DNA from: Polynucleobacter sp. 73C-SIWE
GTDB taxonomy: Bacteria; Pseudomonadota; Gammaproteobacteria; Burkholderiales; Burkholderiaceae
Direction of reading: 5' to 3'
DNA length: 64,000 nt
Assembly (NCBI RefSeq): GCF_018882465.1
Contig: NZ_JACVOK010000002.1
Location: 248,001-312,000 of the forward strand
The position numbers were made by a program, and so were the translations under genes. Below are positions 48,394 to 55,571 of the stretch, one piece after another (position 1 is the stretch's first letter; every line of letters starts with the position of its first letter). Under the pieces are notes generated by a model that saw nothing but the letters and a program-made list of their open reading frames with translations, had not been told where the DNA came from and did no database searches.

Positions 48394-50064
48394 TTACATT
48401 GAGGTGTAGTTAGGGCCGCCTCCACCTTCTGGTGTGATCCAGATGATGTTTTGGCTGGGGTCTTTAATGTCGCAAGTTTTGCAGTGGACACAATTCTGTG
48501 AATTGATCTGCAGGCGGGGTTTGCCATCAGTCTCAACGTATTCATAAACGCCGGCAGGGCAATAGCGTTGCTCAGGACCAGCATAAGTCTTCAGGTTTAT
48601 ATCAACCGGAACGGAATCATTTTTCAGGGTTAAATGCACTGGTTGATTCTCAGCATGGTTGGTATTGGAGATAAACACCGAAGAGAGGCGATCAAAGGTG
48701 ATCTTGCCATCTGGTTTTGGATACTCAATTGGCCGATGTTTTGCTGCAGGCTCTAAACACTCATGATCAGCATGCTTGAGGTGCACGGTCCAAGGCACAT
48801 TGCCGCCTAAGAGTTTTTGCTCTAAGCCAACCATCAAGGTGCCAAGGTAGAGCCCTTTAGACATCCATGACTTGAAGTTACGTGCTTGATTGAGTTCGGT
48901 ATGAAGCCAGCTATTTTGAAATGCTGTTGGGTAAGCAGATAAAACATCGGCAGAACGATTTTCATTTAAGGCAGAAACGGCTGCTTCTGCGGCGAGCATG
49001 CCAGTCTTAATGGCCGCATGACTGCCTTTAATGCGGGAGGCATTCAAGTAGCCTGCATCACAACCAATGAGTGCGCCACCAGGAAATACTGTCTTTGGCA
49101 GACTATTTAAACCGCCAGCAGTGAGCGCACGTGCACCATAAGCAATCCGTTTACCACCTTCGAATGTTTCACGAATTTTGGGGTGCAATTTATAGCGCTG
49201 GAATTCTTCAAAAGGGGAGAGATAAGGGTTCTTATAAGAGAGACCCACCACTAGACCAACAGCAACCTTGTTATCCCCTAGGTGATAGAGAAATGAGCCG
49301 CCATAGGTATCACTTTCTAAGGGCCAGCCAGCAGTATGAACAACCAACCCCGGCTTACTCTTAGAGGATTTGACTTCCCATAGTTCTTTAATGCCAATGC
49401 CATAGCTTTGTGGGTCTGCATCCTGATCTAAGGCAAACTTCGCAATCAGCTGTTTACCGAGATGACCACGAGCACCTTCAGCAAACAGCGTGTACTTCGC
49501 ACGCAATTCCATGCCAAGCTGGAACTGATCAGTAGGGTTACCTTCCTTGTCTAAACCCATTGCGCCGGTAATAACGCCACAGACTGCGCCTTGTTCGTTA
49601 TACAAAATTTCAGCAGCTGGAAAGCCGGGGAAAATTTCAATGCCAAGATTCTCAGCTTGTTGTCCTAACCAGCGCGTTACGTTAGCAAGACTAACAATAT
49701 AGTTACCTTCATTTTTAAAGCAGTGGGGCAACATCCAGTTCGGAACTTGATAAGAGTTATCGGAGGTTAAGAATAGAAATTGATCTTGGGTGACCTCGGT
49801 TTCAAGTGGAGCACCCATTTCTTTCCAATCAGGAAAGAGTTCAGTAAGTGCTTTTGGATCCATGACAGCGCCAGACAAAATATGTGCACCGATTTCTGAA
49901 CCTTTTTCCAGAACGCAGACGCTAATATCCTTACCAGTAGTATTTGCCAATTGTTTGGCTTTAATCGCTGCTGATAGACCAGCTGGACCACCGCCAACGA
50001 TGACTAGGTCATAGTCCATGGACTCTCTGGGTCCAAATTGCTCTAGCAGTTCTGCAGCATTCAT
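48394..50064 (-). CDS. etfD: Electron transfer flavoprotein-ubiquinone oxidoreductase
   Basis: 556 residues. FAD site [19 protein letters not shown] near the N-terminus. The C-terminal 4Fe-4S domain holds CPAGVYEYV and [12 protein letters not shown] followed by [12 protein letters not shown]. It passes electrons from ETF, reduced by acyl-CoA dehydrogenases such as GcdH, to ubiquinone at the inner membrane. It heads a minus-strand operon with gloA, a GNAT and a DUF1289 gene. The 167-base gap to scoA holds divergent promoters; only a small ACGC-TGAG-GCGT hairpin (50176-50187) stands out there. Confidence 0.96.
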
Positions 50065-50231
50065 TCAAATTCTCCGGAATTTCTTCAAAATAGGCTTTTC
50101 AGCCCCATTAGTTTAGTTCGAATAGAGAAAAACCAAATTAGTGCATAGGTAGTAGCTAGGCTGCCCAGGCTTAAGACGCTGAGGCGTTATGATTACTTTT
50201 TTACTCATTTTGGCATTATTAGGACAAAGTT

Positions 50232-50933
50232 ATGAATAAAACCTACCCATCGGCAGTCGATGCCTTGAGGGATATCTTAAAAGACGGACAAAAAATAGCT
50301 GTTGGTGGTTTTGGTCTGTGTGGCATTCCAGAAGTACTCATTCAAGCGGTAAAAGATTTGGGCGCACAGAATTTGACTGCGATTGCCAATAATGCAGGTG
50401 TTGACGGATTCGGTTTAGGTCTCTTGCTGAACTCTCGCCAAGTGAAAAAGATGGTTGCCTCTTATGTTGGAGAGAATAAAGAATTTGAACGTCAGTTTTT
50501 AGCGGGTGAGCTAGAGTTGGAATTCACACCTCAAGGTACTTTGGCAGAAAAATTACGCGCTGGTGGTTGTGGTATTCCTGCCTTCTATACAAAAACTGGA
50601 GTTGGTACTTTGGTTGCTGAAGGCAAGGAAGTAAAAGAATTCGATGGTGAGAAATACATTATGGAGCGCTCCATTATTTCCGACATCTCTTTGGTGAAGG
50701 CTTGGAAAGCAGATAAGTCTGGTAACTTGGTATACCGCTACACCGCACGTAACTTCAATCCAGTCGTAGCAATGGCTGGCAAGATCACAGTGGCAGAAGT
50801 CGAAGAGATCGTTGAGAACGGCCAACTGCATCCAGATGAAATTCATACCCCAGGTATTTATGTGCACCGCTTGGTGCTGCACAAAACCCCCGAGAAGCGT
50901 ATTGAGCAACGCACATTGACTGCAACAGCTTAA
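50232..50933 (+). CDS. scoA: 3-oxoacid CoA-transferase subunit A
   Basis: 233 residues. Together with subunit B it moves CoA between succinyl-CoA and acetoacetate. The CoA-binding [14 protein letters not shown] motif and [26 protein letters not shown] with [14 protein letters not shown] match the subunit A family. scoB follows after 48 bases. In this lineage it may serve ketone-body or polyhydroxybutyrate turnover. Confidence 0.94.
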
Positions 50934-50981
50934 TAACCATACACAGAAGAGCAACAGAACAGAATATTTAGGAAGATTGAT

Positions 50982-51632
50982 ATGCCTTGGACTAGAGATG
51001 AAATGGCAGCACGTGCTGCTAAAGAATTAAAAGACGGTTATTACGTAAACCTCGGAATTGGAATGCCGACCCTGGTGGCAAACCATGTGCCAAAAAATAT
51101 GGAAGTGTGGCTGCAATCAGAAAATGGTTTGTTGGGTATTGGCCCATTTCCAACTGAGGAAACGATTGATGCAGACTTAATCAATGCAGGCAAGCAAACG
51201 ATTACGACCTTGCCTGGTTCATCGATTTTTTCTTCTGCTGATTCATTTGGCATGATTCGTGGCGGCAAAATCAATATTGCAATTCTGGGTGCAATGCAAG
51301 TGAGCGAGCATGGCGACTTAGCCAACTGGATGATTCCAGGAAAAATGGTGAAGGGCATGGGCGGTGCAATGGATTTAGTTGCAGGCGTGAAACATGTCGT
51401 TGTCTTGATGGAGCACGTTGCCAAAAAGAAAGATGGCTCAGAAGAGCTCAAGATTTTGCCTAAGTGCACATTGCCATTAACTGGTGTAGGTGTAATCAGC
51501 CAGATCATTACCGATCTTTGTGTTTTAGACATCACTCGTTCTGGTTTGAACTTAGTTGAATTGGCTCCTGGTGTGACTAAAGAGGAAGTGATCGCCAAAA
51601 CTGGCGCCCCTGTTGATACCAGCGGTTTTTAA
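50982..51632 (+). CDS. scoB: 3-oxoacid CoA-transferase subunit B
   Basis: 216 residues. The catalytic glutamate is in [14 protein letters not shown], near residue 47. [15 protein letters not shown] opens the fold, and [23 protein letters not shown] is the family block. It is in one operon with scoA. The CDF-hydrolase fusion gene starts 35 bases later. Confidence 0.95.
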
Positions 51633-51667
51633 CCCTTCTCACCATTTAATGAAATAATGGGATCACC

Positions 51668-53536
51668 ATGTCGGGATCCCATCGTTCACATTCAGCCAAG
51701 CCTAGAGTTCAAACTAGCTCTGAATTAGACCCTTCGTTGCATGCCCACAAAAAGGGTGATGCAAGACATACTCACAGTAAACAAGTCTCAAATCAAAACC
51801 TACTTCTAATAGCACTGATCCTCACACTGGGTTTTGCAGGAGTTGAGGGTGCCGCCGCTTATTTCGCGAATTCCTTAGCATTAATCTCCGATGCCGGTCA
51901 TATGGTGACTGATGCCGCTGCCTTAGGTTTAGCGCTCTTGGCACAAATAATTTCCCGTCGCCCACCCTCACCAAAACATTCATTTGGCTTTGGTAGAGCT
52001 GAAGCGCTTGCTGCATTTGTCAATAGCATTGCGATGCTGGCTTTAGTTGCATGGATAGTATTTGAGGCGATTACTCGTTTCTATGACCCACATAAAGTAG
52101 ATGGCTTTACGGTTACCGTAGTAGCAGCCATTGGTCTCGTCATGAATCTCATCGTTGCTTGGGTGCTCTCGCGCGATAAGAAAAGTGTGAATACCCGTGC
52201 AGCACTCGTTCATGTGATGGGTGATTTGCTCGGATCTATTGCAGCCTTAATAGCCGGTATTGTGATCCAGTTGACTGGCTGGATGCCAATCGACGCAATT
52301 CTTTCCATTCTGGTATCACTCTTGATTCTTAAATCAACGATTTCTATTTTAGGTGAGTCATACCACTTCCTCATGGAAGGTGTGCCATTACACATTGATT
52401 ATTTGCAAGTGGGTAAAGACTTAAGAGCTGTCCCTGGCGTGCTAGCAGTGCATGACCTCCATGTTTGGGAGATGACACCGAGTTTTCCAGCCTTGATTGG
52501 TCACATTGAAATTGCTGAAATTCAAGAATGGCCTGAAATCATGTCTCGTATTAATGAGATGCTTTTGGATAAGCATGGCATTGACCATGTGACCTTGCAG
52601 CCTGAAATATTTGGCGGTGTTGATGAGCACACTCATGATGAGAATTTGCAGGATGATATTCATGTGTCACCAGTGATGCACCAGGGCGATACCTTTTATG
52701 TAACGTGCGTTGATGGTGAGAGCACGCATCGTATGGCTTATCACGCTTGGGGCAACCCCAGAAATCCAAAAGTCTTGCTGTGTGTGCATGGCTTAACAAG
52801 ACGCGGTAGTGACTTTAAGACGCTTGCTGAAGTGATGTGTCAAGACTATTACGTTGTTTGTCCTGATATTGTTGGCAGAGGAGATTCAGATCGCCTCAGC
52901 AATCCAATGCAATATGCCGTACCTCAGTATGTAGCTGATATTGCTCAGCTCGTCAAAACGCTTGGTGTGGCTCACATTGATTGGTTTGGAACTTCGATGG
53001 GTGGGCTGATTGGTATGGTGTATGCAGCAATGCCAAACTCCCCAATACGAAGAATGTTGATTAATGATGTAGGCCCCAAAATTGAACCTGATGCCATCAA
53101 GCGTTTAGGCTCATATGTTGGCCAGCCATTTTCATTTACCAATCGTAGCGAGGCTCTAAATAGACTGAATGCAATTTGCTCTACCTTTGGTGAGCACACT
53201 CCTGAGGAGTGGGAGACCTATAACGGCCCTATGCTGATTGAGCGTAATGGCTTGTGGATCATGCACTATGACCCTAATATATCCGTGCCGTTTGCTTCAG
53301 TGAATCCAATTATGGCTAAAGCGGGCGAAGTGGCAATGTGGCATGCATTTAAGCAAATTCATATTCCGATGTTGATCGTACGTGGCGCAGAGTCTGACTT
53401 GCTTTCTGCAGCTACTGTTGCCCAGATGTGCAAAGTCAACCCCTATGCGCGCAGTATTGAGATTCCAAATGTAGGTCATGCACCTGCATTTGTGAAAAAA
53501 GAACAAATAGCGTTAGCAAAAGAATTCTTCAGTTAA
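51668..53536 (+). CDS. Fusion protein: CDF metal cation transporter plus alpha/beta-hydrolase
   Basis: 622 residues in one open frame. The first 40 residues are His/Lys-rich (HAHKKGDARHTH). Residues about 43-230 form a six-helix CDF (CzcD/ZitB) transporter with the metal site His78-Asp82 (DAGHMVTD) and His182-Asp186 (HVMGD), the HxxxD pairs typical of zinc carriers. The cytoplasmic CDF domain ends near 315. A short acidic His-rich linker (319-338) leads to an alpha/beta-hydrolase (about 340-622) with LCVHGLTRRGSDF, the nucleophile Ser443 in GTSMGG, Asp577 in GAESDLL and His604 in VGHAPAF. These two families are normally separate proteins. It follows scoB and ends 13 bases before relA. Transport is predicted out of the cytoplasm; the hydrolase substrate is unknown. 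Confidence 0.88.
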   Translation: MSGSHRSHSAKPRVQTSSELDPSLHAHKKGDARHTHSKQVSNQNLLLIALILTLGFAGVEGAAAYFANSLALISDAGHMVTDAAALGLALLAQIISRRPPSPKHSFGFGRAEALAAFVNSIAMLALVAWIVFEAITRFYDPHKVDGFTVTVVAAIGLVMNLIVAWVLSRDKKSVNTRAALVHVMGDLLGSIAALIAGIVIQLTGWMPIDAILSILVSLLILKSTISILGESYHFLMEGVPLHIDYLQVGKDLRAVPGVLAVHDLHVWEMTPSFPALIGHIEIAEIQEWPEIMSRINEMLLDKHGIDHVTLQPEIFGGVDEHTHDENLQDDIHVSPVMHQGDTFYVTCVDGESTHRMAYHAWGNPRNPKVLLCVHGLTRRGSDFKTLAEVMCQDYYVVCPDIVGRGDSDRLSNPMQYAVPQYVADIAQLVKTLGVAHIDWFGTSMGGLIGMVYAAMPNSPIRRMLINDVGPKIEPDAIKRLGSYVGQPFSFTNRSEALNRLNAICSTFGEHTPEEWETYNGPMLIERNGLWIMHYDPNISVPFASVNPIMAKAGEVAMWHAFKQIHIPMLIVRGAESDLLSAATVAQMCKVNPYARSIEIPNVGHAPAFVKKEQIALAKEFFS

Positions 53537-53549
53537 GTCTTGGTTGCCA

Positions 53550-55571
53550 ATGGCAAATGCTTCTAACAAATCTGCAAATGCATTATTCACAGATGCTTGG
53601 TATGGCGAGCCAGCAGAATCTCATGCTGCTGGCGTTTTACAAATACTCCAAACACTTAACTTGGATGACGCCACATTAACGGCTGCAAGCAATATTGCTC
53701 GCACGCATGGCAAAGATGCTCTCAGTAAATTCATTGGCGAAGAACCTGCAAAGCTCTTAATTGGTTATCGAGGCTTACGCCAGGCTCAGGGAAAGCTCGT
53801 TCGTGATGATGGTGGATTAAGTGTTACCGGCCAAGAAGAGATGTTACGCAAGATGCTTTTGGCATTTGGTGATGATTTGCGGGTTGTCTTGATCTATCTT
53901 GCTTCGCGTCTACAAACCCTACGTTGGGTTGCGCATGAAAAAATGACCATGCCTGCAGCTTGGGCGCAAGAGATTCTTAATATTGATGCTTCCTTGGCAA
54001 ATCGCCTGGGTATCTGGCAGATGAAGTGGGAGATGGAGGACTTGGCATTTAGAGCTATGTCGCCAGATACTTATCGTGATATCGCCAAAATGCTAGATGC
54101 CAAACGAATTGAGCGTCAATCATTTATTGATCGTATTGTTTTGCAGCTTCAAGACGAGCTGAAGACGGCGCAGATTGATGGTGAGGTTCTAGGTAGACCA
54201 AAACATATCTATAGCATCTGGAAAAAGATGCAAGGCAAGTCACTCGACTTTGCTGATCTTTATGATGTGAGGGCGTTTCGTGTTCTAGTGGCAGATGTCA
54301 AATCTTGCTATGCAGTCTTAGGTATCGTCCATAACGTATGGCAACCAGTGCCACGTGAGTTTGATGACTACATTGCGCGCCCTAAGCCTAACGGCTATCA
54401 ATCACTGCACACCGTGGTGATGAATGAAGACGGCACAGCTTTTGAAATTCAGGTGCGTACACAAGAAATGCATCAACAGGCTGAATATGGTTTAGCAGCG
54501 CATTGGCGCTACAAAGAGGGCGCCTATATTGGAATGGCTACACCACCCAACCCCACCAAAACGACTAAACCTAGCTCTGCCCATCAGCAAGGTACACATA
54601 GTGCTGAGGTTGCTTATGAACGGCAGATTGCTTGGGCACGACAACTGATTTCCTGGAAGGAAGATGCTTGGGAGCAGCTTAAGCATCATGAGATCGATGA
54701 TCACATCTATGTACTTACACCACTGGGTAAGGTGATTTCACTAGAGAAGGGCTCAACTCCAGTTGACTTTGCCTATGCAGTGCATACCAGCCTCGGGCAT
54801 CGTTGTAGAGGTGCGCGAGTAGATGGTTCGATGGTGCCTTTGGAGACTTCATTACAAAATGGTCAGACTATTGAGATCATTGCCGTAAAGCATGGTGGCC
54901 CTTCACGAGATTGGATTAGTCCTGATAAGAACTACTTACGCTCACACAGAGCGAGATCTAGAGTGCGCGCTTGGTTCAATGCACTTGATGACGAGGAGGC
55001 AGGGCTTGCCGCAAAACCTGTAGAGAATAAAACAGAGGTCAGTACCGAAGAAAAAGCTCCCGTACCAGAAATTGTTCTCCGCAATAGCACTCGCAAGAGT
55101 GGACAAAGTGGCGATGTCTTAGTAGTTGGCGTAGATTCTTTGTTGACGCAGTTGGCACGTTGTTGCCGACCCGTACCTCCAGATTCAATCGCAGGCTTTG
55201 TGACGCAAGGTAGAGGAGTCTCGATTCATCGACGCTCTTGCAAGACTTTTAGAGGTCTTTTGGAGAGAGCTCCAGAAAGAGTGATTCAAACTGCGTGGAC
55301 TGCTAATGCCAACTTAGCCGCAGACAATGATCAAAAGCGGGTGTTTCCGGCTGATTTGGTGGTGACTGGCCTAGATCGACAAGATCTCATGCGCGAACTC
55401 TTTGAAATTCTGACGCGGCAGGGGGTGCATGTCATTGATCTCCGTAAATCCGCTAAAAAGGGCCTCGCTCAGATCCTTTTAACAGTTGAAGTGAAGGATT
55501 CTGAAGTATTGCGCCTTGTTCAAAATAGCCTAGAAGAGGTTAAAGGGGTCACCCAAGTACGCCGCCGGTGA
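53550..55571 (+). CDS. relA: GTP pyrophosphokinase RelA (synthetase-type)
   Basis: 673 residues from the ATG at 53550. The synthetase domain carries the EFDD motif at residues 270-273, the RelA (not bifunctional SpoT) version of this loop, and PKPNGYQSLHTVV. TGS follows (VITPLGK-type, here VLTPLGKVISLEKGSTPVDFAYAVHT), then a zinc-finger region with CCRPVPPD and HRRSC, and a C-terminal ACT domain. The N-terminal hydrolase domain lacks the HD motif, so it should not hydrolyse (p)ppGpp. It is shorter than E. coli RelA (744). It would make (p)ppGpp on stalled ribosomes. tRNA-Val follows directly. Confidence 0.93.
   Translation: MANASNKSANALFTDAWYGEPAESHAAGVLQILQTLNLDDATLTAASNIARTHGKDALSKFIGEEPAKLLIGYRGLRQAQGKLVRDDGGLSVTGQEEMLRKMLLAFGDDLRVVLIYLASRLQTLRWVAHEKMTMPAAWAQEILNIDASLANRLGIWQMKWEMEDLAFRAMSPDTYRDIAKMLDAKRIERQSFIDRIVLQLQDELKTAQIDGEVLGRPKHIYSIWKKMQGKSLDFADLYDVRAFRVLVADVKSCYAVLGIVHNVWQPVPREFDDYIARPKPNGYQSLHTVVMNEDGTAFEIQVRTQEMHQQAEYGLAAHWRYKEGAYIGMATPPNPTKTTKPSSAHQQGTHSAEVAYERQIAWARQLISWKEDAWEQLKHHEIDDHIYVLTPLGKVISLEKGSTPVDFAYAVHTSLGHRCRGARVDGSMVPLETSLQNGQTIEIIAVKHGGPSRDWISPDKNYLRSHRARSRVRAWFNALDDEEAGLAAKPVENKTEVSTEEKAPVPEIVLRNSTRKSGQSGDVLVVGVDSLLTQLARCCRPVPPDSIAGFVTQGRGVSIHRRSCKTFRGLLERAPERVIQTAWTANANLAADNDQKRVFPADLVVTGLDRQDLMRELFEILTRQGVHVIDLRKSAKKGLAQILLTVEVKDSEVLRLVQNSLEEVKGVTQVRRR

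Follow-up and report, generated by a model that had tools for sequence, protein, structure and literature searches.

In Polynucleobacter sp. 73C-SIWE, a zinc exporter of the CDF family and an alpha/beta-hydrolase are encoded by one gene, and this fusion, as judged from a tree of the neighbouring genes, is old, of single origin and kept in one large clade of the genus. The explanation which we favour as a whole, with a probability of about 0.55, is a bifunctional membrane protein composed of a CDF exporter and a PhaY2-type hydrolase, in which one membrane anchor was swapped for another and the two activities are uncoupled. The gene lies in the window analysed here, a stretch of 64,000 nucleotides (positions 248,001 to 312,000 of contig NZ_JACVOK010000002.1), in which all positions are counted:

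50232..50933, + strand: scoA-like gene (3-oxoacid CoA-transferase subunit A), named from synteny with H16_A1331
50982..51632, + strand: scoB-like gene (3-oxoacid CoA-transferase subunit B)
51668..53536, + strand: fused gene, CDF zinc exporter and alpha/beta-hydrolase, 622 codons plus stop in one open frame
51803..52375, + strand: CDF transmembrane domain (residues 46-236; Cation_efflux), HxxxD pairs H78/D82 and H182/D186
52391..52606, + strand: CDF cytosolic dimerisation domain (residues 242-313; ZT_dimer)
52607..52684, + strand: linker (residues 314-339), mostly acidic, in part histidine, predicted disordered
52685..53533, + strand: PhaY2-type alpha/beta-hydrolase (residues 340-622)
52994-52996 (S443), 53396-53398 (D577) and 53477-53479 (H604), + strand: hydrolase triad
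53544..55571, + strand: (p)ppGpp synthetase of the relA/spoT type, family name from sequence

The local gene order thus is scoA-scoB-fusion-relA, the scoA-like gene running in the same operon direction as the fused gene. The listed start of relA is a TTG 8 bases past the fusion stop, with an ATG at 53550; as this frame begins only 8-14 bases past the stop (53536-53550), translation of the two genes may be coupled. Both sets of domains exceed the curated Pfam cut-offs: Cation_efflux (residues 46-236) scores 148 bits against 26.6, ZT_dimer (242-313) 42.4 bits against 26.7, and Abhydrolase_1 (369-468, 54.8 bits) as well as Abhydrolase_6 (370-608, 50.6 bits) likewise lie above theirs. The one-frame fusion of 622 residues described in the first-pass annotation is therefore borne out, and the residues which it had singled out (H78/D82, H182/D186, S443, D577, H604 and the linker histidines H321, H323, H332 and H338) are all found where it had placed them. 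A transport site made of two HxxxD pairs is what we take to be the zinc type of CDF. A record of Polynucleobacter hirudinilacicola is 97% identical across all 622 residues. The 2.0 Mb genome of our strain holds a second, unfused CDF gene, a 319-residue frame scoring 60 bits (G000:C3:477770-478279, locus L002).

Full-length matches occur in many other genomes. The junction frame is open in 118 of the 151 Polynucleobacter genomes searched, a count made up of 115 genomes from 118 read loci (three of these loci belonging to genomes outside the 151) plus G052, G124 and G067, and including our own genome, copies cut by contig ends and one copy whose CDF part is broken upstream (G117). Among the named public loci, 64 of 72 are fused, 5 have separate genes and 3 are cut by contig ends. 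Based on these two counts, chance or assembly error can be rejected, and a sequencing error or missed stop is ruled out by the many independent genomes with an open junction. Two separate genes are present in 23 of the 151 genomes, 13 with bdhA in between (at L063-L069, L071, L074, L075, L077, L078 and L080) and 10 with the two genes side by side, at gaps down to 9-13 bases or overlapping. CDF frames of 924-952 residues reported in some members of the genus were rejected, the DNA showing separate CDF, bdhA and hydrolase genes. Four genomes (G023, G108, G017, G103) carry broken copies; the remaining six have weak or unlisted matches (G139, G092, G093, G100) or no match (G057, G075). Broken copies of the fused gene were seen at L102, L103, L104, L106 and L079 (genomes G108, G117, G017, G023 and G103), and since scoA, scoB or relA is also broken in some of these genomes, this looks like general gene decay.

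The history of the fusion was read from a tree built on scoB and RelA, from which the fused gene itself was excluded (59 rows, 16 of them outgroup); it is the product of a quick search without bootstrap, lacks G017 and places 19 of the 23 two-gene genomes. On this tree, one clade (SH-aLRT 100) unites the 20 fused rows with the 4 broken ones, a second (support 99) comprises the 13 rows with the order CDF-bdhA-hydrolase and a third (support 99) the 6 rows with adjacent genes. The branch uniting the side-by-side clade with the fused clade has a support of 91 and is not starred; three of the side-by-side rows have long branches. Leaving out the broken rows, 3 changes are enough to account for 4 states. 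The genus thus holds bdhA-separated, directly neighbouring, fused and decayed genes side by side. A recent stop loss, the simpler alternative put forward in the first-pass annotation, does not agree with a fusion common to one large clade. Relatives in which a stop separates two genes, which the same annotation had considered decisive against the fusion, do exist in the 23 genomes mentioned; as they form two other clades, they are better understood as the state before fusion than as its refutation.

Both halves of the protein are under strong purifying selection. Among the 115 full-length fused proteins, ours being one of them, H78 and D82 are present in all 115, H182 in 113 and D186 in 114, and none of the 115 lacks any of the triad residues S443, D577 and H604. 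Pooled over 70 close pairs, which have members in common and hence are not independent, dN/dS amounts to 0.030 for the CDF part, 0.050 for the hydrolase and 0.198 for the linker. As the domains are complete and the active-site residues are found in 113-115 of the 115 proteins, the earlier view that both parts are complete and the fusion probably functional holds. The AlphaFold model of the fused protein (49 aligned rows, mean pLDDT 71, pTM 0.48) runs from six membrane helices to a small cytosolic domain, with the ZT_dimer region modelled as helix-strand-strand-helix, and on through the linker to the hydrolase fold; pLDDT falls below 50 at residues 313-334, which are thus predicted to be disordered, and the model contains no confident packing between the transporter and hydrolase parts.

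The identity of the hydrolase is suggested by its surroundings. In the literature, H16_A1335 of Ralstonia eutropha H16 is PhaY2, listed as D-(-)-3-hydroxybutyrate oligomer hydrolase (PMC3430594) and likewise assigned to A1335 elsewhere (PMC3734047), H16_A1331 is CoA-transferase subunit A (PMC4008487), the Azohydromonas counterpart of PhaY2 is an 870-base alpha/beta hydrolase gene (PMC11767486) and a 20-base guide for H16_A1334 is printed (PMC6011247); the name PhaY is also given to a different gene, Rmet_1960 (PMC2864759). Among 254 loci, the guide for H16_A1334 has an exact match in two, L085 and L088, both times within the bdhA beside the hydrolase, and gene numbering puts A1335 next after A1334. 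In the 17 outgroup loci the hydrolase adjoins relA, with a scoB match nearby in 13 and a bdhA match in 12, and a CDF match near the hydrolase in none. Eleven of these 12 bdhA genes lie on the opposite strand to the hydrolase. The hydrolase half is about 50-54% identical to the outgroup genes of group g3. Gene order, together with one 20-mer in the neighbouring bdhA, points strongly, if indirectly, to the hydrolase being the Polynucleobacter ortholog of PhaY2 (H16_A1335), and the esterase or lyase of the first-pass annotation can be narrowed by this synteny to a PhaY2-type 3-hydroxybutyrate-oligomer hydrolase. Its substrate probably consists of 3-hydroxybutyrate oligomers. The nearest curated depolymerase model, NF050089 (i-nPHAscl intracellular PHA depolymerase), gives 50.3 of 300 bits, far below its cut-off. 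The PHB synthase PhaC is present in 35 of 37 genus genomes including our own, which also encodes a PhaZ (597 bits), four phasins above cut-off and, at another place, a bdhA; all 41 genus genomes searched for BdhA gave a match, three of them at only 57-59% identity. Given PHB synthase, PhaZ, phasins and bdhA in the same genome, a 3-hydroxybutyrate-oligomer substrate makes sense.

The N-termini of the unfused hydrolases bear on what the fusion may have replaced. An ATG stands 4-16 residues ahead of the domain in 16 of the 17 outgroup hydrolases (none at L095), 14 having a Shine-Dalgarno-like motif. The unfused hydrolases of the genus carry an N-terminal extension of 39-72 residues in 19 loci, with one of the same kind in 4 more, which opens with a segment that is basic and rich in Leu or Trp, for example MLKRLLKRIFG or MKTSWWYKIKAVL; in G140, G003 and G025 the start is unsure, as the segment has no ATG before it. 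Within the bdhA clade (13 rows), mean identity is 60% over the first 14 residues, 20% over the spacer and 81% over the domain. The AlphaFold model of an unfused hydrolase shows a helix at residues 2-13, with a pLDDT of about 45 and hence of low confidence, followed by a disordered spacer and the enzyme. Of the 19 unfused N-termini, 10 have a hydrophobic moment above that of their shuffles at p < 0.05 (p being 0.07-0.30 for the others); the start Met had been picked for maximal moment, a choice which favours the helix. A basic amphipathic window (moment > 0.5, net charge of at least +1) was found in 0 of 118 fused linkers. Our reading is that the transporter took over from the N-terminal helix as membrane anchor, and we infer that recruitment to the membrane or another surface may have come first and the fusion afterwards. 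The basic helix could also attach to PHB granules rather than to the membrane.

Taken together, the fused gene would produce one bifunctional inner-membrane protein. Its N-terminal half would act as a CDF zinc/proton antiporter of the ZitB/ZnT kind, having an HxxxD + HxxxD site and expected to form a dimer. Its C-terminal half, the putative PhaY2 ortholog, would be a serine hydrolase cutting the short 3-hydroxybutyrate esters that remain after PHB depolymerase has acted; the monomers would then pass to 3-hydroxybutyrate dehydrogenase and on to the CoA-transferase of the adjoining genes. The flexible linker would suspend the hydrolase on the cytosolic side of the membrane. The fusion itself would have arisen once, after both genes had become neighbours, and replaced the amphipathic helix of the unfused relatives in holding the hydrolase at a surface. 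Apart from such tethering of the hydrolase to the membrane, transport and hydrolysis would be independent, with no allosteric coupling. A fuller scenario, which we consider doubtful, is that a PHB-type enzyme was recruited to the inner membrane by the amphipathic helix and then fused permanently, so that short 3-hydroxybutyrate chains, perhaps chains within the membrane, are cleaved there, and the cell relies on a single protein, at a single dose, for both zinc export and polyester turnover.

It should be noted that conservation of both halves would be expected even if their joining had no effect. The most probable of the rivals, in our estimate still unlikely, sees a frozen accident: the stop between two neighbours was lost once, both halves stayed functional and reversal was hard, with no advantage arising from one chain or from the membrane and only an equal dose being fixed. 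The single origin on the tree and the ten genomes with adjacent separate genes fit this, and so does a linker which varies from 16 to 50 residues between alignment columns in 116 rows and evolves faster than either half. However, none of the fused clade's members among the 151 genomes has returned to two intact separate genes, those without the fusion being broken copies; the linker keeps some constraint, being net acidic in 112 of 116 rows (our own genome counted twice here and in all linker rows); and the place of the enzyme in the cell seems to matter, to judge from the N-terminal helix gained earlier. An improbable alternative lets the zinc level or the transport cycle alter the hydrolase through the CDF cytosolic domain or a histidine linker. 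CDF cytosolic domains move upon metal binding, part of the clade has histidine-rich linkers with up to 8 histidines, and H338 is kept in 109 of 115 fused proteins. Yet H323 and H321 are found in only 75 and 74 of the 115, the commonest letters at the position of H332 are Q, K and A, and histidines number 0 to 8 per linker (median 3), with 0-2 in 33 of 116 rows; disorder of the linker and the missing confident packing in the model speak in the same direction. An S-D-H hydrolase of the alpha/beta fold requires no metal. For metal-gated hydrolysis or a local supply of metal, both entertained in the first-pass annotation, nothing was found in favour in the partly conserved histidines and the predicted disorder of the linker, and metal gating is at present a conceivable and unsupported idea.

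More improbable still is that the hydrolase is mostly a separate product of internal initiation or cleavage and the fusion merely nominal. Of the 118 fused frames, 107 have an ATG at residue 355 (domain position 16), and 31 contain, in the stretch scanned, an ATG as well as a start codon with a Shine-Dalgarno-like match of at least 4 bases. Residue 355, however, falls within the hydrolase fold (strand 352-362) and its ATG is present in most outgroup genes too, any other ATG position is common to at most 20 of the 118 frames, and no conserved internal start was found in the linkers of these 118. Promoter-like matches in 49900-53800 were no more numerous than in shuffles (4 against 7.0), and promoter and terminator scans gave nothing relevant to the fused gene above shuffles.

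Beyond the genus, a junction-spanning match was absent among the matches listed for 296 other genomes of the order sample and for 392 genomes of the phylum sample; these samples overlap, 3-4 candidate places were scored per genome and a diverged fusion could be missed. Seven outgroup genomes of group g3 have hydrolase frames of 609-673 residues (L083-L089), which we rejected as fusions: lacking a CDF match and with bdhA running antisense under them, they are regarded as chance open frames. In family f8 of the same order, a CDF gene 64-68% identical adjoins thrS (L255:7582-8514, L258:2724-3596), in L255 lying on the opposite strand with relA on one side and thrS on the other; from this position beside thrS and relA, the CDF may long have been a neighbour of the region. 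In the open-licence PMC literature, we found neither a description of a CDF transporter with a complete metabolic enzyme attached to its tail nor, among papers on PHB in Polynucleobacter, anything on the fused protein. Each family is well known by itself; in open-licence papers we found no description of the two combined, of this combination becoming fixed within a genus or of the ordered series of gene states. This series is a rare natural one for asking why gene fusions persist, and also whether it makes a difference that a PHB-degrading enzyme is placed at the membrane. Since fresh water commonly harbours Polynucleobacter, the result would be relevant to carbon storage in this habitat.

With the ZitB/CzcD/ZnT-type exporters (PF01545 + PF16916), the transporter part shares six TM helices, HxxxD in helices 2 and 5 and the cytosolic alpha-beta dimer domain, and its structural matches are ZnT3, ZnT1 and ZnT4, which Foldseek gives, and ZnT8; with the ZitB equivalog model NF002923 it reaches 262.9 of 408 bits, under the curated cut-off. 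What sets the fused protein apart from these exporters is an extra stretch of about 310 residues, an entire hydrolase on the cytosolic C-terminus. The best matches of this hydrolase half in both sequence and fold are 4ose from Rickettsia typhi and 3bwx from Novosphingobium (TM 0.84-0.86 by target length), which stand alone and are named just putative or alpha/beta hydrolase, in contrast to the fused enzyme here. PhaY2 (H16_A1335) shares the slot which its counterparts in outgroup genomes occupy between 3-oxoacid CoA-transferase/bdhA and relA; these PhaY2-type outgroup hydrolases are separate genes starting near their domain (16 of 17 loci), whereas the Polynucleobacter hydrolase is fused to a transporter.
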